This document shows positions 38,378 through 57,880 of a stretch of DNA of 64,000 nt, in pieces (the first letter of the stretch is position 1; every line of letters begins with the position of its first letter). Source of the stretch: a virus; IMG/VR virus record IMGVR_UViG_3300034050_000451, positions 206,866-270,865 of that record, one strand, 5' to 3'. The notes under the pieces are model-generated. The model was not told the DNA's origin. It saw only the letters and a program-made list of their open reading frames with translations, and did not search any database. Position numbers and translations under genes: made by a program.

Positions 38378-38855
38378 AATATTCTTCTAATACATTTTTC
38401 TTAAAAAATACTTCACTCATATATTGAATCCCATCTTTGTTATATGTACGATATGGATTTTCAATCTTTTTTAATTCAATACCAGTTTTAACGTAACTAT
38501 TATAGATACGTTCTCCACCTCTATCATATACAGTTGCTATATCATATAATCCAACATTTGTAGTTTTTTGTTCATTTAAAACTTTATTAGCTTTATCTTC
38601 CAATTTCTTAAACCATTTGAAAAAATCTTCCGGTTTAATTGATGATAATTTAATTGCTGAGAACTTTTGTTCATATATTCCCGTTACGAATATAATAGTT
38701 GAATCGGCTCCACTTAGGGATTCCTTATTACCATCCGCATATTTGTAAGTAGATATACGATATACCCCATACGGCTGTACAGCCGAACGGGATACACGTT
38801 TTTCTTCTAATATTAGTGGTTTATACTTTATTGCCTGATTTGGAGTAGTTGCCAT
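38370..38855 (-). CDS. Hypothetical phage protein (161 aa)
   Basis: YGVYRISTYKYADGNKESLSG and FVTGIYEQKFSAIKLS form a β-rich domain that I recall as an uncharacterised family in T4-like marine phages. It sits inside the glycan cassette but is not a transferase. It may be a structural protein or a glycan acceptor. Confidence 0.5.
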   Translation of the reverse strand: MATTPNQAIKYKPLILEEKRVSRSAVQPYGVYRISTYKYADGNKESLSGADSTIIFVTGIYEQKFSAIKLSSIKPEDFFKWFKKLEDKANKVLNEQKTTNVGLYDIATVYDRGGERIYNSYVKTGIELKKIENPYRTYNKDGIQYMSEVFFKKNVLEEYYG

Positions 38856-40150: not shown

Positions 40151-40167
40151 AACTTTTTATTTTCTTC

Positions 40168-41559
40168 TTAATTCAATTTAAATAGTTCGTATGATTTACG
40201 AGGTTTCCAATTTTCAAAGGTTCCTTCCATTCCATCAACTAATGTTTTACACATATTTTCTGAACTTAATCCTATTTCACCAATGAAAGCTTCTCTTCCC
40301 TTTAATCCATTCTCTAAAAGAGTTTCTTTTGGTGTATTGTACATATCCATCATTGCTTTAGCAACATCATAGATATCAACTTTATCATCCCAAATATATG
40401 GTGTTGGAACTGAACCTGTTAATGATTGTGCTCTACTCCATACAGGTCTAACCCAAGGTCCTGGTTCTAATTTATCTTCCCAATCTCTCCAATTGTGAAG
40501 TGAACCAATTTTGATATAATCTTCCGAATTAACCAATTTTCCACTATCTTTATACCTAAAACCACATTGGTCTTGCAAACCACCAGTTACGTTTACGATA
40601 ATTGGGGTACCAGCCATTATAGATTCAGCGGTTGTTAATCCAAATCCCTCATTACCAGCGATATTGATTGTTACATCAGCCATATTGTATAGGTAATTTA
40701 ATTCATTTGTAGTTCTACGTTTATCTGAAAATATAACGTTACAATTTGGTGCTAATGTACTATAAACCGTTGGTAAATCGGTACCATTTTCATCGATAGG
40801 TTGTGTGTGCATCACTAAGCAAACTTTAGATGCTTTTTCTTCACCCAATTCCTCACAAAATTGTTTAAATGCCATAATAACATCAGATGGTTGTTTTCTA
40901 CGAATATTTCGGTTTGACCAAAAGAATACAAAATCATATTCTTTACCACCTAATATCTCAGAACGAAATTCGGCTGGTACTTCTGTTGGGAAATATTCTT
41001 TTGAATTAATACCATGTGGTACATAGGATACCTGCCAATCTGAATGAGGTTTCCAAGTTGGCTTGTCCGTTAATGCGGTTAAACGGGATACGATACCATA
41101 GGTTTGACGAGAAATGCATCCAATCCAATCACAACTTTCGTAATAGTTACGATTATATAATGGGTCTGGTAAATCATCCCAAATAGCGTAAAACATAATT
41201 GGAACATTTTGTCTAATCTCATGCTCCATCTCATATAACCAAATCCAATATCTCGGGTCGGTAAAGTGTAATATAGCATCAGGTTGTTCAGCGTTGATTA
41301 ATTGTCTAACCAATCCAGCATCACCATATCCAGTCCAAGGTAGTATTTTAACACTAGCATCTGCTACACCAGTTTGAGCGGCAACATCAACAGATACATC
41401 CAATACTTTACCTTGCTCAGGGTGATTAATTGCGGCTCCTACTTGGAACCAATCGTACTTGTCAACAGTACCCATTACTAATGCTTTGCTCATAGTGGCA
41501 ATACCACTTGCCATTCGCAAATCATCAGAAAGCAATAAAATCTTTTTCTTTTTATTCAT
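40168..41559 (-). CDS. Family 1/4 glycosyltransferase
   Basis: A 463-residue GT-B enzyme: LLLSDDLRMASGIATMSKAL, IMFYAIWDDLPDPLYN, WQVSYVPHGINSKEYFPTE, NIAGNEGFGLTTAESIMAG, TPIIVNVTGGLQDQCGF. The long acceptor domain is typical of GT4. It is the first gene of the cassette as transcribed, 18 bp before the next. Confidence 0.85.
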   Translation of the reverse strand: MNKKKKILLLSDDLRMASGIATMSKALVMGTVDKYDWFQVGAAINHPEQGKVLDVSVDVAAQTGVADASVKILPWTGYGDAGLVRQLINAEQPDAILHFTDPRYWIWLYEMEHEIRQNVPIMFYAIWDDLPDPLYNRNYYESCDWIGCISRQTYGIVSRLTALTDKPTWKPHSDWQVSYVPHGINSKEYFPTEVPAEFRSEILGGKEYDFVFFWSNRNIRRKQPSDVIMAFKQFCEELGEEKASKVCLVMHTQPIDENGTDLPTVYSTLAPNCNVIFSDKRRTTNELNYLYNMADVTINIAGNEGFGLTTAESIMAGTPIIVNVTGGLQDQCGFRYKDSGKLVNSEDYIKIGSLHNWRDWEDKLEPGPWVRPVWSRAQSLTGSVPTPYIWDDKVDIYDVAKAMMDMYNTPKETLLENGLKGREAFIGEIGLSSENMCKTLVDGMEGTFENWKPRKSYELFKLN

Positions 41560-44487: not shown

Positions 44488-45708
44488 TTATCTACCTACT
44501 TCACTCAATCTCTGAGCCTTAAAATCTTCCCATTCTACACCAATACCATCTATGTAATATAAATGTTCCGGTTTTAATCTACCTTCATCATGCAACTTAG
44601 AATATCTCTTAATTGCCTGTCTTTTCCACCACTTATTAATGTAATCATATCCTTCAGCGAACTTTGGTTTCATTACCAATTCAGATTCTTCAATTTCTGA
44701 ACGTAGGAACTCAGGTCCATTTTCATAAATCATAGCGAGATATACACCTCGTTTAAACCCATGATGATATTCATTTGCTTTAATGTTACATTCTTTGAAT
44801 ATCTGTCCCAAAATCTTTTGTTTAATACCACTTACAGGTCCACTAGCTCCTTCACCAGTACCCATATTAGCCCCATTACGGATTCGTTCGTTTGTGATAG
44901 CAGTTTGATACCACTCTGCACGATTTTCCTTAATCCATTGATGCCAAGGGTCATAGAATTTATCATCCGGCTTTAAACTAATTTTACCAGCTGATTCACC
45001 TAATGTTTTAAAGTGAGGAATTCCATTGTATTGTGAATGTATTCCATAAAGGGAAGTTGTACCAACTGCTATTAGAGTTTGTCCGTACTTCTTTTTCCAA
45101 AATTCCCTAACTTCCGGAACCGTAGTCATCATTGCGGTTAACTTACCCCCTAAGAAGTTGTAACCAAGTGGCTGAGTACATACAATAGATGATGCAATAG
45201 TTGTATAGTTAAGTTTACCTTTAGCAAATTTATCTTCCTTAGTCCAACCAATGTAGTTATCTCTAACACCCATTGCGGTTACATCGGATGCTAATGAAAC
45301 TAATCCTAACAATTTACCACTATTCCTATCTTTTATAAATATCTTCACATTTCGACCAGGATTTGCTGTCCAACTCATTGTGTGAATCATTTTACGAACA
45401 TAAGTCCATTTGGTAGATTGTACTGCATCATCTTCAACAATCTCAACATAAGGGTCTAACTCTTCGATTTCTCTAATAGTTAGTTCCTTATTATTGATAT
45501 CAGTTGGTTTCCATTGAGTATCATATAGAGATGCCATTTGGGATTTATCCCTAAACATAGATTCCTCCTGCAACTCTACCCATTTTTTGTATAAGGTTTG
45601 TTCTTCTACACTCATTGTCATAAGGTAGTTCATATTTTCGATGAGTTTTTGTTTCTCATCTTCAAATACAAATATTGGTTTTTGCGGTTCGGTATCCCAA
45701 AAGCTCAT
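44488..45708 (-). CDS. DUF4338-family protein (DruA-like) in the replisome operon
   Basis: A 406-residue protein. The core LLGLVSLASDVTAMGVRD, NYIGWTKEDKFAKGKLNY, GYNFLGGKLTAMM, YGQTLIAVGTTSLYG resembles DUF4338, the domain of Druantia DruA. The N-terminus (1-100) and C-terminus (290-406) are extra. A role in DNA modification or DNA binding is possible. It lies between the clamp loader and clamp genes, a place where T4 has none. Confidence 0.6.
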   Translation of the reverse strand: MSFWDTEPQKPIFVFEDEKQKLIENMNYLMTMSVEEQTLYKKWVELQEESMFRDKSQMASLYDTQWKPTDINNKELTIREIEELDPYVEIVEDDAVQSTKWTYVRKMIHTMSWTANPGRNVKIFIKDRNSGKLLGLVSLASDVTAMGVRDNYIGWTKEDKFAKGKLNYTTIASSIVCTQPLGYNFLGGKLTAMMTTVPEVREFWKKKYGQTLIAVGTTSLYGIHSQYNGIPHFKTLGESAGKISLKPDDKFYDPWHQWIKENRAEWYQTAITNERIRNGANMGTGEGASGPVSGIKQKILGQIFKECNIKANEYHHGFKRGVYLAMIYENGPEFLRSEIEESELVMKPKFAEGYDYINKWWKRQAIKRYSKLHDEGRLKPEHLYYIDGIGVEWEDFKAQRLSEVGR

Positions 45709-45728: not shown

Positions 45729-46424
45729 TTATTTAATCTCTACTAAGTAATAATTTGATACATAGTCACCATCGGTAAATGATAACGTTGCCAATCCCTG
45801 TGATGAGATTTGTAATGATGAGGTTGTTGAACCTCTATTAGCCATTAAGATAGCTTTTAGGTATTTTGCTGAGAATGCAATTGCATCCACATTACCTTCA
45901 CATTTACAATCTACACCAATTGAGATTCGGTTAGAGTTTATTGATGAGTATCCTAAGATAATTTCACCTTTACCATCTTTACAAGTGAATGTAAATGTAT
46001 CAGCGTCAGCTAATGCTCCTTTAGATTTGATGAATTTATTAATAAACTCATTATCTAATGTAATATTTACATTGAATGGTGGAAGTGCTTTCAAGTCAGG
46101 TACCGATGGGATAACTGATGGTGCTGCCAACATATACTGAACTTTTGTTCCTTTATCAGAGAACTTCAATGCCCCAGTAACTTCCTCAACAGTGATACCA
46201 TTATCTAATACACTTAACAAACCTCTTAATTGAGATGTGGTGTAAATACCGAACTCACCATTTGGGAATTCCGATTCTACTACACTTACATCACCTAATA
46301 AGGTTTTGTCATCTGAAATCATTCTAACTGATACGCTTGTATCATCTGATTTTAACATTACTGATTCTACTTCACCACCAAGGTTGTAACGATTGATGAA
46401 GCCATCTAATTTTAATTTTTCCAT
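45729..46424 (-). CDS. gp45: DNA polymerase sliding clamp (gp45)
   Basis: A 231-residue clamp: EKLKLDGFINRYNLGG, LKSDDTSVSVRMIS, GIYTTSQLRGLLSVL, YMLAAPSVIPSVPDLKALPP, SAKYLKAILMANRG. It tethers the polymerase to DNA. T4 gp45 is 228 residues. Promoter 46457-46488. Confidence 0.9.
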   Translation of the reverse strand: MEKLKLDGFINRYNLGGEVESVMLKSDDTSVSVRMISDDKTLLGDVSVVESEFPNGEFGIYTTSQLRGLLSVLDNGITVEEVTGALKFSDKGTKVQYMLAAPSVIPSVPDLKALPPFNVNITLDNEFINKFIKSKGALADADTFTFTCKDGKGEIILGYSSINSNRISIGVDCKCEGNVDAIAFSAKYLKAILMANRGSTTSSLQISSQGLATLSFTDGDYVSNYYLVEIK

Positions 46425-46488: not shown

Positions 46489-49005
46489 TTAAAATGCAAA
46501 AAACTTTTCTGCTGTTTTGGTTGAGGATAAAACCTCTCCCCAATTTAATGCTCCATAGAAATCTTCCAATTTCTTAAGGAGTTCCCTTTCAAAGATTTTA
46601 TCATAATCAATGTAGGTAGTTACTAAGTCCATAATTTCTTTTGGGTCACTATAACCATTTAATCCAACTGCATCTAATCCAAATGGGTTTTGTTTAAGAT
46701 ATACCCATTTAATTTTATCACCATCTTTTAATGGTGCAAATTGATTTTCTAAACCAAAATGAATTAATAGTTGATTATATGCAATAGATGCTTTAACGTG
46801 TGCTGGGCAACCTGATGGGAATTGAAACATTGCCGTTTGTTGTTTCTTCTTTGGCATGTACTTTGTTAAGTTTTTAACTGCTCCGGCTTTAGCAATCTTA
46901 ACAACATCCATATTAACCAATTCTTTTTTGAAATTATAAACTTTATCAGTTATTTGGGTTTCCGTATCACCTCTAAGAATTTCAATTAATATTTCTCCCA
47001 TAAACTTACGGAAAGCCGCTGGGTATGATGACCTAACCACATCTAATCCCTTTACATCCAATCTATCACAAGGTACACCATTATCGGAAATAATCCATTG
47101 TGCGTATCTCTTTTTAGCAATCCAAATACCAGCTTTTGATACGAATTCCTTTTTAATTTCAAATCTATGCTTATCAATGTTGAATACCCTTTTACCTAAG
47201 ATATCATAGAAGTCATTTAGGTAATTCTGCATCTCACCAGCTATATCATTTACATAACCAGCAATTACATCCTGCTCATCATTTTTCCAATTTGGAATTC
47301 GATGGTCTAAAAGAGGAACTGCGGAGAAAAATACCGAATCAGTATCAATATATATATTACTGTCAGCATCAGGAGTGCCAAGCTCCTTATTGTATTTGAT
47401 GTTAGCCATATCAGCTGTGCTTTTAATAACTGTCTGTCCCGTAGTGGTAACAGCGGTAGCATTATCAACATCATAGAACCTAAAGGCAGGAAGACCAAGC
47501 ACCCCATATAAAGAGTTAAGTAAAATTTTCTGAACCAGCTGGCGTTTTTTATAGAATGCGTACTTTTCTTTATCTCCCTCATCACCATATTTTTTTTCTA
47601 ATTTTCTAAATTCAACCCTTTGAGAGAACCATAAGTCCAATATATCAGGAATACAACCCGGTGTATCCGTTCTATACATAACACCATTTGATGCTACGGA
47701 ATATTTACTTTTCTCTAATAGAATTTTTAGATTTTCTTTTGTTATGTAATTATCACCAACTTTATACTCATTAACTTCACCTTTTAAGTATTTTTGTGCA
47801 TCCCAATCTTCCAACTTACCAACTTTGGTTTCTGGTGAGATATTGATACTCATAATGATTGATGGATATAGGGAAGTTAAATCCAAATCATAAATCCAAT
47901 CATATTTTCCAACAATAGGTGCTTTAACATATGCTCCAATGAATTTCTCTTCATTATTTTCCTTAAGAGCTTCCATTCTCTCTCTTCTATCAGCAGGTTT
48001 GTTAGGTGCTACAATGTTCTTTCTTTTAAGATAACATAATAATGCTCCTTCCAAATACTTTGATGAATATACGAAATCTTCATATGGAACGTGTCCTGCG
48101 TGGCAGATACCTCTAGCGGTATCTATGAATTGTAGTTTCTTATCAAAATCAACAACTAACTCAACATCGACTAAGTTATACTCAATAAACTTTTCAATAT
48201 CATCTCTGAATAAGATATCTAAGTTTCCTTCATATTCAATCTTACCCCTACCCAATTCTCTTTGAGCAATGGTATCTAATCTATATGAATCTAATTCTGA
48301 ATATGTGAAGTTTTTATAAAGTGAAAGGTAATCCAAATAAGATACACCTGCCATAAAATACCTTTTACGATATGGTGACCAAAAACACTGTCCAATTGGT
48401 GATAATCTATTTGCATGTCTTTCACCCAATAAACGTTTGATACGATTATATAACATTGGTGTATCGAAATAATCAATATTCCAACCAGTTACAATAGATG
48501 GATTTATATACTCATACAATTCCAAATATTTCATTAACATATCTTCTTCATGTGTAAACGGAATAACGATAGCTTTATCAGTTTTACGCTCTACCATTTG
48601 ACCTTTTTTATCCATTACTAATACCCAATATTGGTTAGTAGCAGAATCATGCAGTGCAATTGATGTTAATTCATTCTCTGCTTTTTCTGGGTCAGGTAAT
48701 CCACTCTCCATCTCACACTCAATATCATATGTAAGTGTAACGTGTCCTTCAGATGGAATATCCGAATTGGTGTACATATCTACTAAAACTCTCGTAGTTT
48801 CAGGTACATCTGATTCAAATAGTGTAGGGTCATCTCCTTTGAATTTATAAATCTTAGTCACCTTATCTCCATATAGAGTGGTGTACTCACCATTTACTGC
48901 TTTTTCATAAGCATATCGGGTATATGGAAAACTCCTATACCCTTGAGTATCATCCCACAAATGGACTAAGTTCTTTTCTCTTTGATAATATATGTTTGAA
49001 TACAA
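46489..49005 (-). CDS. gp43: Family B DNA polymerase (gp43)
   Basis: An 838-residue replicative polymerase. Exonuclease I D94-I-E96 (TYDIECE); exonuclease II region GWNIDYFDTPML; exonuclease III YNLVDVELV. Polymerase motif A D373LDLTSLYPS; motif B K493ILLNSLYG; motif C Y552IDTDS. Both proofreading and polymerisation sites are intact. Length is near T4 gp43 (898). Confidence 0.96.
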   Translation of the reverse strand: MYSNIYYQREKNLVHLWDDTQGYRSFPYTRYAYEKAVNGEYTTLYGDKVTKIYKFKGDDPTLFESDVPETTRVLVDMYTNSDIPSEGHVTLTYDIECEMESGLPDPEKAENELTSIALHDSATNQYWVLVMDKKGQMVERKTDKAIVIPFTHEEDMLMKYLELYEYINPSIVTGWNIDYFDTPMLYNRIKRLLGERHANRLSPIGQCFWSPYRKRYFMAGVSYLDYLSLYKNFTYSELDSYRLDTIAQRELGRGKIEYEGNLDILFRDDIEKFIEYNLVDVELVVDFDKKLQFIDTARGICHAGHVPYEDFVYSSKYLEGALLCYLKRKNIVAPNKPADRRERMEALKENNEEKFIGAYVKAPIVGKYDWIYDLDLTSLYPSIIMSINISPETKVGKLEDWDAQKYLKGEVNEYKVGDNYITKENLKILLEKSKYSVASNGVMYRTDTPGCIPDILDLWFSQRVEFRKLEKKYGDEGDKEKYAFYKKRQLVQKILLNSLYGVLGLPAFRFYDVDNATAVTTTGQTVIKSTADMANIKYNKELGTPDADSNIYIDTDSVFFSAVPLLDHRIPNWKNDEQDVIAGYVNDIAGEMQNYLNDFYDILGKRVFNIDKHRFEIKKEFVSKAGIWIAKKRYAQWIISDNGVPCDRLDVKGLDVVRSSYPAAFRKFMGEILIEILRGDTETQITDKVYNFKKELVNMDVVKIAKAGAVKNLTKYMPKKKQQTAMFQFPSGCPAHVKASIAYNQLLIHFGLENQFAPLKDGDKIKWVYLKQNPFGLDAVGLNGYSDPKEIMDLVTTYIDYDKIFERELLKKLEDFYGALNWGEVLSSTKTAEKFFAF

Positions 49006-49028: not shown

Positions 49029-49059
49029 CAAATATACGATAATTTTTTTACTTATCAAA
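49029..49059 (-). promoter_or_regulatory. Bacteroidota-type promoter of the polymerase gene
   Basis: Minus strand TTTG - 19 bp - TATATTTG (box 49029-49036). Confidence 0.65.
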
Positions 49060-50169
49060 AGTATTTCTCGCATTATTTACGAAGTTTTCTTCGATTTTCC
49101 AACTTTTAAGTTGAGATTCCCATAATAGTGATTGAGCAATGTGAGTTATATCAGGTCTTTCAATTTCACCATCTAATAATTTAACAACCATTTCTTTAAA
49201 TTCTTTTTTTCCATTGTAAAGAAGTGGGTATTCGTTACCAACCATTTCAGGGTAACAAAAATCATTAGGTAGTAAATAAGGTACACCTCTACTTAACCCA
49301 TCAGTTGCACTCATACTCCATGCTGAATAACCTTGAAACGTTCCTACACCAAAATGAGCTTCTGCTAATTGATTCATATAAACATTCCTATCAGCATGTC
49401 CAATATATTTGGTATATGGTTTATTCATATTGTTTAAGGAAGTCCAAACTTCAAAATCTTGTCTTTCTTTCCATAGGTTATCCATAGTTTCAAAAAACCA
49501 ATCTGAACCTGTATATACACCTTCTCTATGATTAAACACAATAGTTTTTGGTTTATATGTTTGAGTTGGTGTTGCTGAATCGCATCCTAAATACCAAGGT
49601 TGAATAATCTCTTCTAACTTATCAGTAATATGCGATTTAAATGTTTCTTTTGCTCTTTTAATAACCAAATCTTTAACCCATTGTGAGTTTACACCACAAA
49701 CCTTCATTTGTAACATGCCTTTCACATTTCTCCAAAATGAATTATCATCTCTAGCACCATTATCTTTAATTTCCCACCAATGACAATAACCAATAATAGG
49801 TTGTGTTTTATTGTAAATACGAGTAATTTTAAACTCATTAGTCCATTCAGGTAAATGTGACCAAATTAGATTAAATTCACCATTATATTTTTCAATAATT
49901 CGGTTGAAGAAATTATTGGGATAATCTACTCTCATTTTTGGTGGAAAACAATCCAATCCATCCATTTTAACCAACTTAACATTGGGATATTCAAATTGAT
50001 TGATTATACCAGGGTGGTTATTTAAATCTGGGTATGGGAGAATCCATTCCCATTCTTTTCCTATTTCGGTGTTGTCTAAAAATGACTTAAACACCAATAG
50101 GAACGAATCCCTATTGATGTCTTTTGCCATACCAAAATTTGTGTAATTAGGTATTACTAATACTCTCAT
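49048..50169 (-). CDS. GT-B glycosyltransferase in the replication region
   Basis: A 373-residue protein. MRVLVIPNYTNFGMAKDINR, KPKTIVFNHREGVYTGSDWF, EVWTSLNNMNKPYTKYIGHA, GVGTFQGYSAWSMSATDGLS, RGVPYLLPNDFCYPEMVG: the last two are the donor loop of GT-B enzymes. Its place between the polymerase and the Mom/DGQHR genes suggests it may glycosylate DNA, like T4 α- or β-glucosyltransferases, rather than surface glycan. No base-hydroxylating enzyme is seen nearby, so this stays open. Confidence 0.6.
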   Translation of the reverse strand: MRVLVIPNYTNFGMAKDINRDSFLLVFKSFLDNTEIGKEWEWILPYPDLNNHPGIINQFEYPNVKLVKMDGLDCFPPKMRVDYPNNFFNRIIEKYNGEFNLIWSHLPEWTNEFKITRIYNKTQPIIGYCHWWEIKDNGARDDNSFWRNVKGMLQMKVCGVNSQWVKDLVIKRAKETFKSHITDKLEEIIQPWYLGCDSATPTQTYKPKTIVFNHREGVYTGSDWFFETMDNLWKERQDFEVWTSLNNMNKPYTKYIGHADRNVYMNQLAEAHFGVGTFQGYSAWSMSATDGLSRGVPYLLPNDFCYPEMVGNEYPLLYNGKKEFKEMVVKLLDGEIERPDITHIAQSLLWESQLKSWKIEENFVNNARNTFDK

Positions 50170-50174
50170 CCATT

Positions 50175-51698
50175 TTATTTTAAAATTGCTTTATTTGATT
50201 TTCTGATATTTGATGTTTTATTTCTGATTACTAAATTTTGTATAGTAGTTTCATTACCACTTGCTCTAGCATCAATATGGTCACCTTCCATAATTGAATT
50301 AGTACCCATTAGTTGCTCAAATGTGAACTCATTCCCATCAGCATCAATCCAATCATTTTGAATTGCTGCGTTTAATTTTTGTTTTTTAGTATAGTTTGTA
50401 GTATCAATTAAAGTAATAACACCACTAGCGAAAAGTTTATCATAACTTTTATAAAACTTTTCCATAATCATAGTAGAACGAATTTGTATATCATCCGTTT
50501 TCTTAGCTCCACATTTTCTTTTAAATGATTCGGCGTTTGTTGATTTCTTACCAGTAATAGGATGTACATAATCTTTTCCAGTTGCCGGGTCTATAAGGAA
50601 TTCATCTTCCTTTCTCAAAGTTGCTTCAGTTTTTGCAAACCAATCGATAAACTTTTTATAACTATTAATTTTTATCTCCTTATCTTTATTATTCATTGGG
50701 TGAGATGGAGTATTCAATACCGTCATTAATATAAATAAGTTATCTAAGAATGTTCTTTCAAATTTAACATCTCCGGCTGAATTTGCTAATTCTATCGATT
50801 TACTGATTAATGATTTAGTATCATTCATTCTCTTTTTACTATGTTTTGGTAATCCTTCAATTGAAGCCATAGTATCTAACATAGAATTCTTTGGCCAACT
50901 ATATATGTTACCCTCCAATACGTTGTAATAATATGCAAACCATTCAGCTATTATAAGTGCATCACCCTTTTTCAAAAGAGAGTAATCGCTTGATAGATTC
51001 TTTGTATTATTAAACATTGCTGTTAATAATGGGTTATTATTCATAAATGAATGTAGGAATCTATTGAATTGAGATGGTATGATAATTCTTCGTTCATTAT
51101 CATTCCAAGGTTCTCCGATATTGGTATAGATTGTAATATCAACCATATCCTGCAAAGTTGCTTTTTCAACTAATACAATTGTAATTGGTAAATCCAATAC
51201 TTGCTTTTGAGTAAGTTCCGGCATATCTTTGAAATATATACCTTTCATTTCAAATGGTATTGTATTACCATCTTTACTTTCGATTAAATCAATTACTGAT
51301 TCTGTAATTGTAAATTTGGAATTTAAATAGTCAGAATAACATTCCACTCTATGTTGACCATCTATATTTAGATAACGATATCCTAACTTTGTTAGGTTTT
51401 GTAAGTAATCAATTGTTTCTTTAACAGATTCATATCTGTCATCTCCTTCAGAATATTGAGATATCAATGATTCACAATAGTCTAAACATCCATCAATACT
51501 TACTAATACAATTGTGTAGATATTTGAGTGTCCAATTAAACACGCTTTCATATGTTTTGCTGATGTTGTATCCTCCCACTTATCAAGCAATCTTTGTAAT
51601 TGATGCTTATCCACATAAATATAAGGGGACATTTCTCTTAGTTTGTTTAGAGTTCCACCAGAAAGAACTTTTGCGCTAATTGATTTTTTAATAGCCAT
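50175..51698 (-). CDS. DGQHR-motif protein with C-terminal HNH endonuclease
   Basis: A 507-residue protein. Residues 108-117 read RYLNIDGQHR, the DGQHR/DGQQR motif (D113-R117) of DndB-like and DUF262/GmrS-type proteins. Residues 473-500 (DHIDARASGNETTIQ, NLVIRNKTSNIRKSNK) form an HNH-type nuclease end with H474, N488 and N497. The layout is like GmrSD-type modification-dependent nucleases, but in one chain. With Mom-like genes upstream it may cut DNA by modification status, or be a homing-type nuclease. Its leader carries two hairpins. Confidence 0.7.
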   Translation of the reverse strand: MAIKKSISAKVLSGGTLNKLREMSPYIYVDKHQLQRLLDKWEDTTSAKHMKACLIGHSNIYTIVLVSIDGCLDYCESLISQYSEGDDRYESVKETIDYLQNLTKLGYRYLNIDGQHRVECYSDYLNSKFTITESVIDLIESKDGNTIPFEMKGIYFKDMPELTQKQVLDLPITIVLVEKATLQDMVDITIYTNIGEPWNDNERRIIIPSQFNRFLHSFMNNNPLLTAMFNNTKNLSSDYSLLKKGDALIIAEWFAYYYNVLEGNIYSWPKNSMLDTMASIEGLPKHSKKRMNDTKSLISKSIELANSAGDVKFERTFLDNLFILMTVLNTPSHPMNNKDKEIKINSYKKFIDWFAKTEATLRKEDEFLIDPATGKDYVHPITGKKSTNAESFKRKCGAKKTDDIQIRSTMIMEKFYKSYDKLFASGVITLIDTTNYTKKQKLNAAIQNDWIDADGNEFTFEQLMGTNSIMEGDHIDARASGNETTIQNLVIRNKTSNIRKSNKAILK

Positions 51699-51716
51699 AA
51701 TAATTTAATTTTTTTT

Positions 51717-51739
51717 GGTATCGTTGTTGTGGTGATACC
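51717..51739 (-). other. Leader hairpin 1 of the DGQHR/HNH gene
   Basis: GGTATC / GATACC stem with an 11-nt loop, directly before the start codon region. It could fold over the start and control translation. Confidence 0.4.
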
Positions 51740-51759
51740 TTTACCACATTGTTTATTTT

Positions 51760-51781
51760 GAACTCATATAAGGGTGAGTTC
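51760..51781 (-). other. Leader hairpin 2 of the DGQHR/HNH gene
   Basis: GAACTCA / TGAGTTC, 7-bp stem with an 8-nt loop, in the same ~100-nt leader. Confidence 0.4.
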
Positions 51782-51800
51782 TTACCCTATCTTTATAACA

Positions 51801-51831
51801 CTAAGATACGAATTATAATTCATATAGCAAA
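51801..51831 (-). promoter_or_regulatory. Bacteroidota-type promoter, imperfect box
   Basis: Minus strand TTTG - 19 bp - TATCTTAG (box 51801-51808). Gives the DGQHR/HNH gene a leader of about 100 nt. Confidence 0.45.
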
Positions 51832-51880
51832 ATGTTTTTTAATTATTTTATAACTAATTGATTATCAATAAGTTAGTATT

Positions 51881-52684
51881 TTACCAAAAATTGATGTCAT
51901 TACTCTCTTCTGGTGCGTATGTAGTGTGATGTACTACTTCGGTATTATAATCGTTTAAATCCTTTGGATATGGCTGTATTGGATGTTTTAATCTACCCAT
52001 CAAGTCCTTTCTCTCCTTCTTATTTTGGGGTAATATTTGAATATACCTATGTTTTGGTGGTTCTTCTCTTCTCCAAAACTCCTTATATCCATCCTTTCCA
52101 ATTTCCTTTCTAAGATGCTCCAAATTACCACTTCCCCAGTTATTATAAACTGTCCTACTATGAATCCAATCGAATGGGTCATTAATTAATGAAATTCCCC
52201 AATTTGGCATCAATGCAATATCAGTATTTAATCCCTGATAAATCCAATTGGTAGCTTTGTATATCCCACCAACGTGTCCTTGTCCATTATTAGCGTATGA
52301 TAGTAATACTTTAATATTAGTATCATTTTCTCTAATCCATTGGAATGTTTTACCTAATGCACAACTTTCAATATTTGAACCATATCCATCATCAACATAC
52401 AAACGGGTAAGTTCTAAGATGTTATCTTTTGTTAACCCATCACATACCGATGTTGGTGCTTTGGCTCCAACAGGGAACCCATAAACTGCTACTCCAACTA
52501 ATTTGTTATCTGAAAACCCAACTGATGTTTCATCTTCTCTATAATAGATACCCAATGCGTATCTACATGCTGTCCAAGCATGAGTGTAGTGTTTTTTAAC
52601 AATCATATCTTTAGCGATAGATTTAGCAATAGGAGCTACACTTACTCTACTGGCATCAACATAATGTTTACCTTCTTCTTTCAT
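51881..52684 (-). CDS. Mom-like DNA modification protein, copy 1
   Basis: A 267-residue protein. Segments KHYTHAWTACRYALGIYY, NKLVGVAVYGFPVG, LELTRLYVDDGYGSNIES and LLSYANNGQGHVGGIYKATN match the Mom family (Mu Mom, which adds a methylcarbamoyl group to adenine; GNAT-like fold). It is a clear paralogue of the gene at 53075-53842. Function would be to mask phage DNA from restriction. The small gene at 52686 precedes it with a 1-bp gap. Confidence 0.7.
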   Translation of the reverse strand: MKEEGKHYVDASRVSVAPIAKSIAKDMIVKKHYTHAWTACRYALGIYYREDETSVGFSDNKLVGVAVYGFPVGAKAPTSVCDGLTKDNILELTRLYVDDGYGSNIESCALGKTFQWIRENDTNIKVLLSYANNGQGHVGGIYKATNWIYQGLNTDIALMPNWGISLINDPFDWIHSRTVYNNWGSGNLEHLRKEIGKDGYKEFWRREEPPKHRYIQILPQNKKERKDLMGRLKHPIQPYPKDLNDYNTEVVHHTTYAPEESNDINFW

Positions 52685-52685
52685 T

Positions 52686-52838
52686 TTACTTTACCCACTC
52701 ATTAAATGCGTTTTCAAATGCGGTTACCTTATCCACTCCTTCAGATTGATATTGTTTTGCAGTTTCTATTACTTCAAAACGTAAACCAAATGCGGATGCC
52801 TCCATTAAGATTTCTTCAATTTGCTCCTCTGCTGTCAT
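52686..52838 (-). CDS. Small acidic protein (50 aa)
   Basis: MTAEEQIEEILMEASAFGLR..., ending FENAFNEWVK. The amphipathic helical protein lies between two Mom-like genes, 1 and 2 bp from its neighbours, so it is part of the module. It could be a subunit or regulator; no family recognised. Confidence 0.6.
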   Translation of the reverse strand: MTAEEQIEEILMEASAFGLRFEVIETAKQYQSEGVDKVTAFENAFNEWVK

Positions 52839-52840
52839 AA

Positions 52841-53044
52841 CTAATTTAATTTGATTGTTGTATTAATATAATGCTCTCTTACTTTGTTTAACCACACCTT
52901 ATCTTTTGGGTGGTAATGACCTGAACGTAATGTGAAATCAACTAATTGTTGATGTGGATAATCTCCACCAATAGTCTTTATAAGTTTCAAAAGTTCCCTT
53001 AACTCATTTGTTAGTGGAAAAAACTTTATAGGTTTCCTAGCCAT
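52841..53044 (-). CDS. Hypothetical protein (67 aa)
   Basis: MARKPIKFFPLTNELREL..., with DYPHQQLVDFTLRSGHYHPK. His- and Lys-rich, small. Its own full-consensus promoter (53062-53093) precedes it. Function unknown. Confidence 0.5.
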   Translation of the reverse strand: MARKPIKFFPLTNELRELLKLIKTIGGDYPHQQLVDFTLRSGHYHPKDKVWLNKVREHYINTTIKLN

Positions 53045-53061
53045 ATATTTAATTTATAAAA

Positions 53062-53093
53062 CAAATATACGAAATTAATTTGATATTTCCAAA
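53062..53093 (-). promoter_or_regulatory. Bacteroidota-type promoter of the second module half
   Basis: Minus strand TTTG - 20 bp - TATATTTG (box 53062-53069); full consensus. Confidence 0.7.
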
Positions 53094-53842
53094 TTAATCG
53101 GTTCCATTTTTGTAATTTGTTCTATAAATTCCTCATTTTCCTTTGGATATGGGAATAATGGGTGCTTTATGGTTTTCATAAGTTTCCTACGTTCGCCACC
53201 TTTTGAGAGAATATACACATATCTATGTTTTCTTGGGTTCTTTCGTATCCAAAACGTAGATGATGCTATCTTTTGGATTTCAGTTGGATTGTTAGTTCCA
53301 AATTTGACATAAGATGTTCGTTGGTGGTGCCAATCACCATCTTCTTCCCATCGAAAATCCCAACTATCGTTAAATCTTAGTTTGTTACCCTGATACAACC
53401 AATTTGTGGCTTGATATATAGTACCACAATGTCCTTCTTTCGGGTCTGAATATGATATTAGTGCTTTAATGTTTGGTACATTTTCTCTTAACCAATCAAA
53501 TGTTTGAGATAGGAACCAACTTTCAATATTAGAACCATAACCATCAAATACAAATAATCGAGTTAATTCTAATACCTCATCCCGTTCTAATAGGGGTGTA
53601 ATTGATTGCCCAGCACTTCTACCTATTGGGTCACCATAACAAGCAACTCCAATTAATTTATCTTCTACATTACTAAAGAATGTATGCTCTTCTACTTCAG
53701 AGGTAAATAAACCAATAGCATAGGATACTTTAGTCCACAAACCACTATAATGATTGTTTACTATAATATCCTTTGCTACCGATTTGGTTATTAATCTAAT
53801 TGATAGCTTTGAAGTATCGCAATATTGTTTGTTTTCTTTCAT
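53075..53842 (-). CDS. Mom-like DNA modification protein, copy 2
   Basis: A 255-residue paralogue of the gene at 51881-52684: NNHYSGLWTKVSYAIGLF (the HYSG start of Mom), DKLIGVACYGDPIG, LELTRLFVFDGYGSNIES and LISYSDPKEGHCGTIYQATN. The end QRTSYVKFGTNNPTEIQK and KHRYVYIL also align. The two copies are well diverged, so they may recognise different sites. 4-bp overlap with the HTH gene upstream. Confidence 0.7.
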   Translation of the reverse strand: MKENKQYCDTSKLSIRLITKSVAKDIIVNNHYSGLWTKVSYAIGLFTSEVEEHTFFSNVEDKLIGVACYGDPIGRSAGQSITPLLERDEVLELTRLFVFDGYGSNIESWFLSQTFDWLRENVPNIKALISYSDPKEGHCGTIYQATNWLYQGNKLRFNDSWDFRWEEDGDWHHQRTSYVKFGTNNPTEIQKIASSTFWIRKNPRKHRYVYILSKGGERRKLMKTIKHPLFPYPKENEEFIEQITKMEPINLEISN

Positions 53843-54042
53843 AAACTACCAGTCCAAAATTCATTTAAGTGTGTCCATGTCTCATTTCTCACAATTCTTA
53901 GAATATTGGCTGAGGAACATTTGTTGTTTTGAGCAATTACTCTAACATTTCGGTGTCCCATTTTCCATAACCTTCTTATTTGTATAACCTGCTCATCTGT
54001 CAATTTTGATGACGGGTGAGACTGACCTCTTAGTATTGGCAT
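53839..54042 (-). CDS. Small helix-turn-helix protein (67 aa)
   Basis: SSKLTDEQVIQIRRLW, then RVIAQNNKCSSANILRIV and NETWTHL: this is the solitary DNA-binding repeat of NUMOD/homing-endonuclease-associated domains. It may be a regulator left from a mobile endonuclease, now joined to the Mom-like gene by an ATGA overlap. Confidence 0.65.
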   Translation of the reverse strand: MPILRGQSHPSSKLTDEQVIQIRRLWKMGHRNVRVIAQNNKCSSANILRIVRNETWTHLNEFWTGSL

Positions 54043-54340: not shown

Positions 54341-56122
54341 CTATCCATCACAACTCAAGCAATCAATATCCATTGCTCTATCAGCAATATCACCTCTGAG
54401 TACTGATTCAGTTCTCATATAATAAAGTGTTTTAACACCTTGCTTCCATGCTTCCATACTTACAGTATGTATCCATTTTGGTGTTGCGGTAGATGGGAAT
54501 GCCAAATTTAATGAAACCGCTTGGTCAATATACTGCTGTCTAATTCCAGCTTGTCTAACCAATTCTAATTGATTTATTTCTTTGAATGTTTTAAATACAT
54601 CCTTAATATTAAATGATTTTTCGTAATCTAATTCAGATATATCTTCTTTCTTTAATACTTTACCATTTAAGAATCTCCATTCATTCAATTCATTAATATC
54701 CTGAATTGAACCTCCATCTGCCATAATTTTATCCCAAATTTCTTTTGTATTGATTCCTATTTTTTTAAAAACCCTTTCCAATTCACCATTCTTACGAATA
54801 AAAGTTCCTTTAGCAGTTTGTTCCGTAAATACGTTAGCTGCCCAAGGTTCAATACCAGCAGATACATCACCACTCAATTTAGAGTTTGATACCGTTGGTG
54901 CAATTGCTCTTAAGTGTGTATTTCTAAACCCACTATCTCTACACCATAAAGGTTCACCCAATTCAACTGCCATATCTCTACTTGCTCTTTCAGATTCAAT
55001 CTTTAATTGAGAGAAAATCTTACGAGTTTCAAATTGTGCAATCATTCCTTCAAATGGAATACCCCTTTGTTGTAAATAAGTGTGCCATCCTAATACACCT
55101 AATCCCAATGCTCTACCTTTTTCAGCAGAACGAACTGAGTTTTCAAATCCTTTTAAGTTTTTAGCTTTTTGGATAAATTCTGAAAGAACTCCATCTAAAA
55201 ACCAAGTTGCGGTATATACTAAATCAGTATCTTTCCACTCATCGTACTTAGCTAAGTTTAAAGATGATAAACAACATACAAATGAATGTGATTCATCAGT
55301 ATGAAGAGCGATTTCAGAACATATGTTTGTCATATGAACTTTCAATCCATTAACTTTGTACATCTCTGGGTTTTGTTTATTAACATTACCCTTAAACATA
55401 ATATAAGGTTCTCCAGTTGCTTTACGTTTCTGAAGTAATTTACCCCATTTTCTACGAGCTTCTTCATCTCCGTTTTCCAACTTTCTCATAAACTTATCAC
55501 CTACTACTGCACATTGGTGTAGGTTAAGTGATTGGCGATTTACATCACCTTTTGGTTCTCTAATCTCTAACCAATCTTCAAAATCTTTATGGTCAATGTT
55601 TAGGTTAACAGATGCTGCTCCCCTACGAACTGAACCCTGATTTGTGGCAAGTATGGTTGAATCATAGATTTTTGTAAATGGAATTACACCATCAGATGTT
55701 CCATTTCCAGTAATTTGTGCTCCAGCTGGTCTAATTTGATTAATACCAATTCCAACCCCACCACCATGTTTTGCTAATAACATTAGTTCTAAATTCTTAG
55801 TACCAATATCAAATATTGAATCAGCTACATCAATTCCGAAACAAGATATAGGTAAACCCCTATCAGTTCCAGTGTTTGATAAAACAGGTGTAGCCAAGTT
55901 TAACCAACCTTTCCAAATGTAATCAAAAAACTTTGATGCCAATTGTGGTTTGTTTAATCGTTGTGCTACTTTAGTAGAAACTCTCCAATATGCATCTTTT
56001 GGTTTCTCTCCAGCTAGCAAATACCCTTTACTAATAGTTTTTACATAGATTTCGGTATTTCCCCATTCTGGAAAATCTACTCCCAATTCCCAACCTAAAT
56101 CTTCTCCGTAATTTTTAGCCAT
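54341..56122 (-). CDS. nrdA: Ribonucleotide reductase class Ia large subunit (NrdA)
   Basis: A 593-residue subunit that makes dNTPs. C94 (LPISCFG), the N266-x-C268-x-E270 catalytic set and C283/C284 give the active-site cysteines; C588-x-x-C591 at the tail exchanges with thioredoxin. It has no N-terminal ATP-cone (E. coli NrdA is ~760 residues), so dATP feedback inhibition is probably absent. Downstream of NrdB, MazG-like and SET genes. Confidence 0.93.
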   Translation of the reverse strand: MAKNYGEDLGWELGVDFPEWGNTEIYVKTISKGYLLAGEKPKDAYWRVSTKVAQRLNKPQLASKFFDYIWKGWLNLATPVLSNTGTDRGLPISCFGIDVADSIFDIGTKNLELMLLAKHGGGVGIGINQIRPAGAQITGNGTSDGVIPFTKIYDSTILATNQGSVRRGAASVNLNIDHKDFEDWLEIREPKGDVNRQSLNLHQCAVVGDKFMRKLENGDEEARRKWGKLLQKRKATGEPYIMFKGNVNKQNPEMYKVNGLKVHMTNICSEIALHTDESHSFVCCLSSLNLAKYDEWKDTDLVYTATWFLDGVLSEFIQKAKNLKGFENSVRSAEKGRALGLGVLGWHTYLQQRGIPFEGMIAQFETRKIFSQLKIESERASRDMAVELGEPLWCRDSGFRNTHLRAIAPTVSNSKLSGDVSAGIEPWAANVFTEQTAKGTFIRKNGELERVFKKIGINTKEIWDKIMADGGSIQDINELNEWRFLNGKVLKKEDISELDYEKSFNIKDVFKTFKEINQLELVRQAGIRQQYIDQAVSLNLAFPSTATPKWIHTVSMEAWKQGVKTLYYMRTESVLRGDIADRAMDIDCLSCDG

Positions 56123-56123
56123 T

Positions 56124-56432
56124 TTAATTCTCTTCTTTTATGAAAACACCATTAACAGTATTTCCTTTTCTATTCTTAATTTCATTCCAAGCATGCTCTA
56201 AACATTCAGCTGGTTCTAATCCCAACTGATATGCTAATATGATTAATGTTACAAATGTATCACCAATCCCATCTTGGATTTCTTCTGTTTTTTTGTTCTT
56301 TGCGATTGCTCCAGCGGTTTCACCCAACTCTTCCATCACTTTCATCAATTGTTTGGGTGCGTTTTCTGCTTTTAGGATATCCTTAGCATCAGCCCATCCT
56401 TTTACGTTTTGTATTAATTCATCAAAATTCAT
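56124..56432 (-). CDS. MazG-like nucleotide pyrophosphohydrolase
   Basis: A 102-residue protein. KVMEELGETAGAIAK (ExxE) and IQDGIGDTFVTLIILA (ExxD-type) are the metal-binding helices of MazG/all-α NTP-PPases. It would hydrolyse dNTPs or alarmones, here next to RNR. 4-bp overlap upstream. Confidence 0.8.
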   Translation of the reverse strand: MNFDELIQNVKGWADAKDILKAENAPKQLMKVMEELGETAGAIAKNKKTEEIQDGIGDTFVTLIILAYQLGLEPAECLEHAWNEIKNRKGNTVNGVFIKEEN

Positions 56433-56842
56433 AATATTGTGCTATCTAAATCGTAGGTTCCGAATAATTCTTCACCTGCTTTAATGTGTGTAATTGCTAT
56501 TTTATTTTGAGTGTTGAAGTTAGCCCTTTCAACACCTAATGTGTTTGTATATGCCAATGGATTTACTAAATTAAAATATCCATCATTATATAATTTAAAC
56601 CATACAAAGGGGTATTCACCCCTTTTATTTTCGTATGATTTAAGTATTATGCGTTTAACATATATTGGTAGTTGTTCAAATTCTAAATGGGTTATTGTAT
56701 ATGTTCCAGTTTCCCCATCCCATCTTTCAAATAATGATTCACCGGCTTTGATATCTCTAAGAGCAAATGTACCAATTCCATGTATTGGGCTTGGTGCAAT
56801 ATCAGTTTTGATGCAATTATTTAAATATGTGAATGTACTCAT
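56429..56842 (-). CDS. SET-domain methyltransferase-like protein
   Basis: A 137-residue single SET domain: SPIHGIGTFALRDIKAGES at the N-terminus, NTLGVERANF where NHxxxPN is usual, and AITHIKAGEELFGTYD at the C-terminus. Such proteins methylate lysines using S-adenosylmethionine; the degenerate Asn-His site leaves activity open. The start codon is 5 nt past the promoter's TTTG, so the mRNA may be leaderless. Confidence 0.8.
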   Translation of the reverse strand: MSTFTYLNNCIKTDIAPSPIHGIGTFALRDIKAGESLFERWDGETGTYTITHLEFEQLPIYVKRIILKSYENKRGEYPFVWFKLYNDGYFNLVNPLAYTNTLGVERANFNTQNKIAITHIKAGEELFGTYDLDSTIL

Positions 56843-56884: not shown

Positions 56885-57880
56885 TTAAAATAAATCTCCC
56901 CAATCTTCCCCTTCATTAGCCTTTGAATAATCAGTAGGTCTAATAGCGAAGAAATCAGTATGTGTAGTACCACCAGTTAAGTGATAGAACCATTCTAAAT
57001 TATCAGCTTTCTTAGAGTTGAATTCGAAAATACCATCATAACCTAATTCTCTAAGTTTGGTATTTGTTCTCGCTTTAATAAATTCTTTCAAATCTGATGA
57101 TTTTAGATTTTCTAAATCACCATTTTCAAACATCTTATCAATAAAATGAGATTCTAATTCTACGATTAGTTTAGCTGCTTCTTCGATTGATTCTTTACTA
57201 GCTTCCTTTAATTCAGGAAACTCTTCACACATATGATTGAACAATTGACAACCCATCTTAGAATGTAAGGATTCATCCCTTACAGACCATTTCATTTGTT
57301 GTCCTATACCTTTCAATAGATTTCTCATTTGGAACGAATATAGAACCGCAAATGATGAATAGAGCGATACTCCTTCAGCGAATGCTGAAAAGATTGCCAA
57401 ACTTCTTGCTACTTCCTGTCTTGCTATCGGATTTGTTTCCAAATCGTTATGTGTCCAATCAGCTGTAGTAGAAGTTAAGAGTTGGAATTTCTCAGCAACT
57501 GCAGGTTCGTGCAAAAATGCTGAGAAATCATCTAACCCTAATGTTTCATTTAGATATGAATATGCGGTTGCATGAATTGTTTCTTGTGAACCAAACATCA
57601 TAGCCATCTGCTTAATTTCATGCTTTGGAAACCATTTGGTTACCATCGTAGTCCAATAATCAGATACAGCACATTCAGTTTGAGCAAAACCCAATAGAAT
57701 GTTACCAACCAAATGTTTTTCATCAGATGTAAGATTTTCATTCCAATCTTTAACATCACCCTGCATTGAGATTTCAGTATGTAACCAAAATGCCTGAGCT
57801 TGTTTTAACCAGCCTTCTTCATAATACACTGGAAATTCAAATGGTTTGTAGGGTATTCTTTCAGTAAATAATTTGCTCAT
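56885..57880 (-). CDS. nrdB: Ribonucleotide reductase class Ia small subunit (NrdB)
   Basis: A 331-residue di-iron subunit. QTECAVSDYWT, SQETIHATAYSYLNE (ExxH plus the radical Tyr), EGVSLYSSF and RDESLHSKMG (ExxH) are the iron-ligand motifs. It makes the tyrosyl radical for NrdA. The C-terminal tail (ANEGEDWGDLF) docks on NrdA. Confidence 0.95.
   Translation of the reverse strand: MSKLFTERIPYKPFEFPVYYEEGWLKQAQAFWLHTEISMQGDVKDWNENLTSDEKHLVGNILLGFAQTECAVSDYWTTMVTKWFPKHEIKQMAMMFGSQETIHATAYSYLNETLGLDDFSAFLHEPAVAEKFQLLTSTTADWTHNDLETNPIARQEVARSLAIFSAFAEGVSLYSSFAVLYSFQMRNLLKGIGQQMKWSVRDESLHSKMGCQLFNHMCEEFPELKEASKESIEEAAKLIVELESHFIDKMFENGDLENLKSSDLKEFIKARTNTKLRELGYDGIFEFNSKKADNLEWFYHLTGGTTHTDFFAIRPTDYSKANEGEDWGDLF

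Follow-up and report, generated by a model that had tools for sequence, protein, structure and literature searches.

A hypervariable gene slot beside a Mom operon in a large phage: a possible swappable restriction-like weapon

The window analysed here, a stretch of 64,000 nucleotides (nt) within the 270,865-base virus record IMGVR_UViG_3300034050_000451 (IMG/VR; positions 206,866 to 270,865), carries two Mom-family genes followed by a gene whose product joins a DGQHR motif to an HNH-like end. Comparison with related loci provides good support for a hypervariable slot with several nuclease-like occupants after one of the Mom genes, MomA. The explanation to which we lean, if only slightly, is a swappable phage-borne restriction-like weapon, in which a Mom operon stands beside an exchangeable slot that here holds a GmrSD-type enzyme under the control of a leader RNA.

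The block would consist of two adjoining units, the HTH67-MomB-(small genes)-MomA operon and the exchangeable slot. The first, judging from the families of its enzymes, probably marks the phage's own adenines; the second lies ahead of a glycosyltransferase-like gene (gt) and the DNA polymerase gene (pol43). The slot enzyme of the window would combine a DUF262-like, nucleoside triphosphate-binding sensor fold carrying DGQHR, a fold suggested by structural comparison, with an HNH-like nuclease end, and would most likely cut DNA that lacks the resident phage's modification or bears a different one, that is, DNA of the host or of rival phages. Homologous recombination from the MomA/leader side to the gt/polymerase side would swap slot genes, as the exchange pattern suggests, and the swapping would let a phage population retain many specificities. 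In the DGQHR family, two tandem pseudoknots upstream of the start codon probably gate translation.

The Mom operon and the slot that follows it

Every gene of the block lies on the minus strand. In transcription order, the interval between the ribonucleotide reductase and polymerase genes holds thioredoxin (trx), HTH67, MomB, a 67-amino acid (aa) gene, a 50-aa gene, MomA, the DGQHR-HNH gene and gt, with a 182-nt gap from MomA to the DGQHR-HNH gene and a 5-nt gap from there to gt. The main features are as follows.

53839..54042, minus strand: HTH67, 67-aa helix-turn-helix (HTH)-like protein, first gene of the Mom operon, with a 4-nt overlap with the MomB start
53075..53842, minus strand: MomB, 255 aa, second predicted Mom-family enzyme (Pfam Mom, PHROG 1384, 8bv8 profile match)
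52841..53044, minus strand: small basic gene, 67 aa, isoelectric point (pI) 9.9
52686..52838, minus strand: small acidic gene, 50 aa, pI 4.2, with relatives in some loci
51881..52684, minus strand: MomA, 267 aa, predicted Mom-family DNA modification enzyme (Pfam Mom, PHROG 1384, 8bv8 profile match)
50175..51698, minus strand: DGQHR-HNH protein, 507 aa, GmrSD/SspE/BrxU-like, with a ParB/Srx-type N-terminal part and a C-terminal HNH-like part
49048..50169, minus strand: gt, glycosyltransferase-like protein directly downstream of the nuclease, of a type associated with the nuclease family

MomA and MomB match the Pfam family Mom (PF25680) over nearly the whole domain, with E-values of about 1e-44 (5.5e-44 and 1.5e-44) and scores of 150.7 and 152.5 bits, where the cut-off stands at 27.1; both also match PHROG 1384 ('Mom-like'). 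A joint profile of the two retrieves the solved Mu Mom chain 8bv8 (E 3e-13), and the ELxR and YQAxN stretches are preserved in the alignment with it. They are the sole Mom matches across the record and, at 44% identity, are indeed the diverged paralogues that a sequence-only reading of the window had recognised. That reading placed one small acidic gene between them; the acidic gene is there, but it is one of two, the second being basic. As judged from their sequences, MomA and MomB stay distinct in L004, L005 and L006 (L-numbers denote loci of relatives), which carry a nuclease 92% identical to that of the window and one orthologue each of MomA and MomB at 68-70% identity.

The Mom search set comprised the best 80 loci among at least 560 confirmed relatives, forming 45 groups after dereplication at 95% MomA identity. 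Of the 44 scorable dereplicated loci, 33 have two Mom genes, 10 have a single one and 1 has three; an HTH67 homologue lies at most 60 nt from the first Mom gene in 36 of the 44. HTH67-Mom-Mom is a conserved operon. By analogy with Com in Mu, HTH67 may act as its regulator. The protein also resembles the tail of PHROG HNH endonucleases (phrog_20467, E 0.001). The conservation of the block across related phages, proposed earlier as a check, holds for HTH67-Mom-Mom, whereas the gene after MomA is exchanged.

In dereplicated loci the MomA-gt junction exceeds 300 nt in 24 of 27 cases. The other junctions on the Mom side do so in 2 of 34 (HTH67-MomB) and 7 of 37 (MomB-MomA), those downstream in 2 of 23 (gt-pol43) and 6 of 21 (pol43-gp45), and those upstream in 3 of 28 (nrdA-trx) and 10 of 27 (nrdB-nrdA, where five of the inserted open reading frames, ORFs, are a mazG homologue). 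Where a gene was absent, the same length was exceeded in 4 of 8 MomA-pol43, 3 of 6 HTH67-MomA and 2 of 2 nrdA-HTH67 junctions; gene pairs in reverse order are omitted from these counts. MomA-gt junctions below 300 nt number 3 of 27 after dereplication, and short junctions occur in 12 of the 63 raw loci in which MomA and a downstream gt or pol43 are both visible. In 4 of these 12, a slot-type gene sits one or two genes onward, just after gt in L048 and L053 and after the polymerase in L050 and L052; the genes of the latter two are related to the HATPase protein of L088 (E 2e-32 and 5e-37). This unclassed HATPase family (L050:10562-12121, L052:10554-12155, L088:6891-8408) is found after the polymerase as well as after MomA.

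The slot occupants fall into at least seven groups between which no similarity was detected. One joins the DGQHR-HNH family with a GmrSD_N-HNH family. Others carry names of our own, given from motifs seen by eye: GIY-ParB has GIY-YIG-like and ParB-like motifs, with weak Pfam support (SegE GIY-YIG in one of five members, E 0.38, behind unrelated weak matches); ParB-RE is ParB_N-like with an ExK motif (ParB_N in one of five members, best 0.0015); HNH600a and HNH600b are 600-aa proteins whose motifs are without Pfam support. Further occupants are DruA (E 4.5e-20), a HATPase protein (L088) whose PDDEXK/HSDR_N-like end gives weak matches, helicase-like proteins, GIY-YIG/NUMOD3 genes and a number of single proteins. 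Full-length members of the main groups measure 387-682 aa. In one contig, which may be chimeric, a 903-aa ORF that looks TonB-receptor-like by eye follows MomA (L041:6864-9572).

Phages with near-identical Mom genes bear different slot genes, or none, at this junction. A single group of ten loci sharing 95% MomA identity includes GmrSD_N-HNH, GIY-ParB, ParB-RE and HNH600a genes, together with four gene-less junctions. L044 and L047 have unrelated genes in the slot but agree at 92.8% as far as the leader and at 97.4% from where the slot ends. A gene-for-gene replacement is also seen in L048 and L053, whose flanks are 94.5% and 95.3% identical. In the occupied L029 and in L030, which lacks a slot gene, the flanks are 91.6% and 88.5% identical, yet gt differs as well.

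This high turnover on near-identical backbones would also be expected if the slot genes were selfish, homing-type or free-standing endonucleases that settled between MomA and the DNA polymerase, the Mom neighbourhood being incidental. Junctions of essential genes would favour their spread, homing genes often lie near essential phage genes according to a passage of PMC10448857, and GIY-YIG/NUMOD3 genes do enter the slot (L066: NUMOD3 E 7e-20, GIY-YIG 1.8e-6). Moreover, the third-codon divergence of the nuclease between the window and L004 (0.31) lies below the 0.41-0.50 of six neighbours, as after a later transfer. Nevertheless, a recent homing transfer of the window gene is not clear, because its divergence at four-fold sites (0.42) is near that of nrdA (0.45) and pol43 (0.44). 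We consider the selfish origin unlikely: the classifiable occupants of 387-682 aa look restriction-type (GmrSD_N-HNH; HATPase with weak HSDR_N/PDDEXK; ParB_N in one member), junctions below 300 nt are exceptional, the window family has a dedicated structured leader, and its sequences indicate strong purifying selection, the protein identity of the window and L004 being 92% for the nuclease against 57-83% for the six neighbours. One DGQHR gene (L024:984-2500) is split across two reading frames, through sequencing error or decay, and is intact in the near relative L023.

A palindrome, AACTTATTGATAATCAATTAGTT (read on the minus strand; 51852..51874, strandless), lies just past the MomA stop; the match is exact, against a mean of 0.02 matches in shuffles. 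Palindromes of the type TAACTnATTGATnATCAATnAGTTA lie just past stop codons in these phages, after MomA, gt and a gene that looks GroES-like by eye. The palindrome separates MomA from several unrelated slot genes and goes with the slot gene where the latter is located after gt; of 89 codirectional sites, 69 are followed by a gene that belongs to none of the six slot families. It is also present in at least 120 stretches of bacterial contigs; among the 80 listed, the majority bear a Bacteroidota title and 35 belong to a single Microscillaceae metagenome-assembled genome. Considered as a cassette recombination site, it was demoted, since it follows many unrelated phage genes and is frequent in bacterial contigs. 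A terminator check gave a leader fold z of -1.35, with 22 of 200 shuffles folding as well. It may be a terminator, an operator or a recombination site; its sequence strings had no match in open PubMed Central papers.

A GmrSD-like protein behind a tandem pseudoknot leader

The union of a DGQHR motif (residues 113-117) with an HNH end, proposed in the sequence-only reading, is borne out by relatives. Scans of viral contigs gave a DGQHR family of 25 loci (39-100% identity), of which 17 were aligned and 14 extend to the C-terminal HNH-like region. D113-R117 and Q35-R36 are invariant in 17 of 17, giving the DGQ(Q/H)R motif and QR pair of GmrSD/DUF262-HNH proteins, and D473, H474, N488 and N497, an (E/D)H-N-N motif, are invariant in 14 of 14. 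The HNH match of the window protein itself is weak (PF01844, E 0.022, under the Pfam cut-off), but its C-terminal third aligns with the slot's GmrSD_N-HNH family (hhalign probability 93.9%, E 1.6e-7), a member of which, L037, exceeds the Pfam cut-offs for both GmrSD_N and HNH. Among the 17 aligned members, weak matches to GmrSD_N occur in 2 (best 0.0086) and to HNH in 3 (best 0.0037).

For fold comparison we used a second AlphaFold model, built from 17 sequences (predicted local distance difference test, pLDDT, 70.2; predicted template-modelling score, pTM, 0.68); a first, from 7 sequences, was discarded (pLDDT 53.3). The top five rows in VIA-align are BrxU and SspE. The SspE rows have Z 5.4-5.9 and a root-mean-square deviation (rmsd) of 3.8-4.7 over 147-156 residues; the BrxU rows have Z 5.5-6.0 and an rmsd of about 14 over 282-283 residues. 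An F1-ATPase chain (Z 4.6), ParB (4.5) and a DndBCDE-DndI chain (4.0) follow. Of 11 BFVD matches at E <= 0.001, 7 bear the name DUF262 or GmrSD_N; the best is a DUF262 protein (E 2.8e-9). Motif conservation, the C-terminal profile alignment and these fold matches agree with the GmrSD/DUF262 likeness seen earlier. They are suggestive rather than conclusive of a place among the GmrSD/SspE/BrxU-type (DUF262-HNH) nucleases, and the protein probably works like that type, its activity being predicted.

Several results weigh against this assignment and, with it, against the swappable weapon. The window protein has no Pfam match to GmrSD_N at E <= 1, and model confidence is low at residues 480-507, the HNH end. 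All VIA-align rows lie below Z 8, a range that may reflect merely a shared arrangement, and the BFVD TM-scores are low (0.2-0.4 by query length). Foldseek with the same model found nothing in the PDB at E <= 0.001 (best SspE, E 0.1), and PDB sequence-profile searches with the DGQHR family gave nothing credible. Other searches were negative: a protein search of annotated phage records had no match, PADLOC on the three main proteins found nothing, NCBIfam gave nothing credible, and scanning bacterial genomes with this family yielded 48 pattern stretches and zero relatives.

The most unexpected element, supported on few sequences, is a leader with covarying tandem pseudoknots. Two H-type pseudoknots fall within the 105 nt (51699-51803) preceding the DGQHR gene.

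51760..51788, minus strand: pseudoknot PK1, S1 AGGGT/ACCCT, S2 GAACTC/GAGTTC (covariation, shuffles, background scan)
51717..51748, minus strand: pseudoknot PK2, S1 TGTGGT/ACCACA, S2 GGTATC/GATACC, ending 18 nt before the ATG

PK1 was compared in 8 sequences, 4 of them distinct. Pairing is kept through the S1 variants AGGGT/ACCCT, AAGGT/ACCTT and AGAGT/ACTCT, and S2 occurs as GAACTC/GAGTTC, GCATTC/GAATGC (GAATGT in L005) and GATATC/GATATC. All 44 cells are paired, against 27-44% when slid, and 5 of 11 pairs are changed on both sides; the changed-pair count is reached in 10 of 500 shuffles, that of further pair types in 101 of 500. For PK2, in 6 distinct sequences (L005 and L006, identical here to L004, being omitted), 97.2% of cells are paired, against 30-58% when slid. 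Three of its 12 pairs are changed on both sides, a count reached by 8 of 500 shuffles, and five of six loop pairs are invariant. L055 and L110 were omitted from the covariation sets because their register differs. These counts lean in favour of the pseudoknots, because the latter were first spotted by eye in the aligned leaders.

In a pseudoknot search, 7 of 8 DGQHR leaders beat all 100 shuffles, and L110 was reached by 4 of 100. Of seven other slot leaders, one hand-chosen example each, the best (L087) was reached by 6 of 100 and three lack any pseudoknot. A background scan over 185 loci (1,576,734 bases, plus strand, copies included) gave 65 sites reaching the threshold: 20 directly precede a DGQHR-family gene, 4 precede some other known gene, and 41 have no known gene behind them. 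Three of these 41 are the window's own site on the opposite strand. No such leader was found in L115 and L118, and Rfam gave nothing credible for the leader. In the ten measured leaders, 15-20 nt separate the end of the last pseudoknot from the ATG, a position at which it could gate ribosome entry. The slot, the linked gt-like gene and this leader RNA are elements beyond those that the sequence-only reading contained.

Inheritance and genomic setting of the slot genes

A restriction-modification pair would be expected to be inherited together. We compared partners in 31 dereplicated loci, drawn from 78 that contain Mom as well as gt and pol43, modelling six slot families. Nuclease family shows no association with Mom type or cluster (z -0.7 to 0.6), so that the expected co-inheritance was not found. 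With pol43, z is 0 for clusters at 70% and 80% identity, and at 50% and 60% there is a single cluster. With gt, on the other hand, z is 8.5, 6.8, 6.3 and 4.1 for 50-80% clusters, and the mutual information of 55 dereplicated nuclease-gt pairs is reached by 0 of 5000 shuffles.

The latter result raises the possibility that gt is the nuclease's true partner, the two forming matched cassettes in which gt would add sugar to the phage DNA and the nuclease would spare its own sugar type and cut the others. Such pairs would agree with the close packing of the genes, gt starting 0-9 nt past the last sense codon in 110 of 124 nuclease-gt neighbours (copies included), and with the targeting by GmrSD of glucosylated hydroxymethylcytosine DNA, as a passage of PMC4619093 describes. 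Even so, we keep matched weapon pairs as a rival only, and a quite unlikely one, because linkage suffices: non-homologous genes can be exchanged only via homology on both sides, upstream in MomA or the shared leader and downstream in gt, the polymerase or beyond, and neutral linkage fits the association. Multi-member groups at 90% identity contain more than one nuclease family in 6 of 7 cases for gt, as for 6 of 8 Mom and 5 of 6 pol43 groups, and between the window and L004 gt is 57% identical, against 92% for the nuclease. The assignment of gt is itself weak: 8 of 20 members match Glyco_transf_4, the best at 1.4e-5, with no credible match for the window protein itself, and PDB sequence searches for gt gave nothing credible. 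Lastly, no source of hydroxymethyl bases was found, one thymidylate-synthase family gene being present; a Tet_JBP search had no match, but its control gave no signal either.

The neighbourhood of the slot families indicates that Mom is not obligatory for them. Of the 69 GIY-ParB loci, 30 have Mom no more than 500 nt upstream and another 2 have it at 1.7 kb; the nearest upstream feature in the remainder is DruA (17), gt (2), gp44 (1) or nothing known (13), with 4 cut off. Of the 18 ParB-RE loci, 10 have Mom no more than 500 nt upstream and another 2 no more than 1 kb upstream, with DruA in 2 and nothing known in 4. The next gene downstream is gt in 44 of 69 and 14 of 18 of these loci, respectively. 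DGQHR genes have Mom upstream in 23 of 25 loci, with 0.7-1.9 kb between in L109, L110, L112 and L117; the gene of L115 follows DruA, and L118, cut 85 nt upstream, has the same DruA end by eye.

In this context, the DGQHR-HNH protein could be a type IV enzyme that cuts the modified DNA of other phages, a variant of the swappable weapon without a role for Mom, which we rate as a tentative possibility. The presence of slot families without detectable Mom agrees with it. The fold is not decisive, because SspE, equally close, works together with a self-mark; besides, the resident Mom mark would need to be tolerated. GmrSD and BrxU are type IV enzymes according to PDB titles and a passage of PMC4619093.

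Returning to the swappable weapon with its Mom operon, further observations tell against it. Nuclease family and Mom type are not associated, as described above. A hunt for Mom in 18 records, covering 17 of the 39 GIY-ParB/ParB-RE loci whose nearest known upstream gene is not Mom, plus L118, found it in 3 and not in 15, most of them fragments and one of 148,235 bases (L124, which shares a contig with L054 and its Mom pair, was omitted). Other junctions gain genes too, above all trx-HTH67, which exceeds 300 nt in 15 of 40 dereplicated loci. Finally, no nuclease domain is recognised in several slot occupants, and further ones are DruA or helicase-like. Since nuclease family and Mom type vary independently in this set, protection of the phage by Mom against its own nuclease is possible, yet unproven and without support. 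The self/non-self system of the sequence-only reading keeps a plausible restriction-like nuclease, while its dedicated Mom-nuclease pair is not supported.

The block is set among T4-like replication genes, named by eye, with the following neighbours.

44488..45708, minus strand: DruA-family homologue, between the clamp and clamp-loader genes
45729-46424, minus strand: clamp, T4-like replication gene
46489-49005, minus strand: DNA polymerase pol43, T4-like replication gene
53062..53093, minus strand: Bacteroidota-type promoter-like site before the 67-aa, 50-aa and MomA genes
54341-56122 and 56885-57880, minus strand: ribonucleotide reductase, named by eye

In relatives, the DruA family occurs after MomA, after gt or before slot genes. 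The phage is large and its host probably belongs to Bacteroidota, since promoter-like sites of what we take to be the Bacteroidota consensus, TTTG-18/22-TAnnTTTG, are enriched in the window (14 sites; shuffles average 4.2, and 14 is reached in 0 of 100). A 137-aa ORF (56429-56842) looks SET-domain-like by eye, which is odd for a phage. A run of glycosyltransferase-like genes with a UDP-GlcNAc 2-epimerase-like gene, also seen by eye (35016-41559), could be a sugar source for the virion, the DNA or the cell surface.

Comparison with known systems

If our explanation is true, a large phage group, probably of Bacteroidota, would have a standard socket for swappable restriction-like genes, adjoining DNA-marking enzymes and the DNA polymerase. 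Phage-versus-phage DNA restriction would be directly testable, as natural close relatives differ at the slot. The slot would also provide several protein families yet to be classed, together with a new structured RNA, the covarying tandem pseudoknots, that goes with one nuclease family.

With Mu com-mom the block shares a small gene that precedes Mom and overlaps its start: com and mom overlap in Mu, HTH67 and MomB by 4 nt here. Unlike Com, a zinc finger, HTH67 is HTH-like, and the window phage has two Mom genes.

The sequence-only reading knew of no described system with such a gene set. This novelty is reduced by section 3.4.7 of Iyer et al. 2021 (PMC7824862), which predicts Mom fused to REase-fold nucleases in jumbo phages, Mom protecting the phage DNA and the nuclease attacking host or superinfecting phage DNA; a weapon of Mom plus endonuclease, as predicted in that section, is therefore not a new idea. 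Both cases place Mom and an endonuclease in one phage, but in the window the genes are separate, Mom is present as a tandem pair, and the slot gene is replaced by unrelated genes in relatives as Mom stays in place. The new parts are the swap slot and the pseudoknots; in the passages of the open PubMed Central literature consulted, no report was found of either the slot or pseudoknots before a GmrSD-type gene.

With GmrSD, BrxU and SspE the window protein may share, as profile and fold suggest, a ParB/Srx-like DUF262 fold at the N-terminus and an HNH-like C-terminal end; it has the QR and DGQ(H/Q)R motifs given in a passage of PMC4619093. It differs in being phage-borne, beside Mom genes and a gt-like gene, in having DGQHR rather than DGQQR, in lacking a GmrSD_N match of its own and in its structured leader RNA. 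ParB-HNH fusions in bacteria appear in part of a survey of the ParB-CTPase fold (PMC12704722).

The leader recalls, by description, the gene 32 operator of T4 and RB69, also a pseudoknot upstream of a start codon in T4-like phage mRNA (passage of PMC535899), although here two pseudoknots stand in tandem before a nuclease gene. It also recalls type III toxin-antitoxin systems (ToxIN, CptIN, TenpIN), since tandem pseudoknot RNA units lie 5' of a nuclease gene in both. In those systems the antitoxin consists of tandem pseudoknots ahead of an RNase gene, with ToxI-type units of 34-36 nt in the relevant passage of PMC5086642, against about 40-42 nt here by hand count. By this analogy, though we find it very unlikely, the tandem pseudoknot RNA might directly bind and restrain the nuclease, an RNA-guarded restriction enzyme that would be released when rival phage or host DNA disturbs the RNA supply, the slot being a reservoir of exchangeable weapons on a Mom-marked chassis. 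The differences are that the window protein seems, by motifs, profile and fold, to be GmrSD-like rather than a ToxN-fold RNase, and that the window leader has two units only. Finally, phage homing endonucleases resemble the slot genes as mobile nuclease genes beside essential genes (passage of PMC10448857), from which the window family differs in domain architecture, in the strong purifying selection that its sequences indicate and in its leader RNA.

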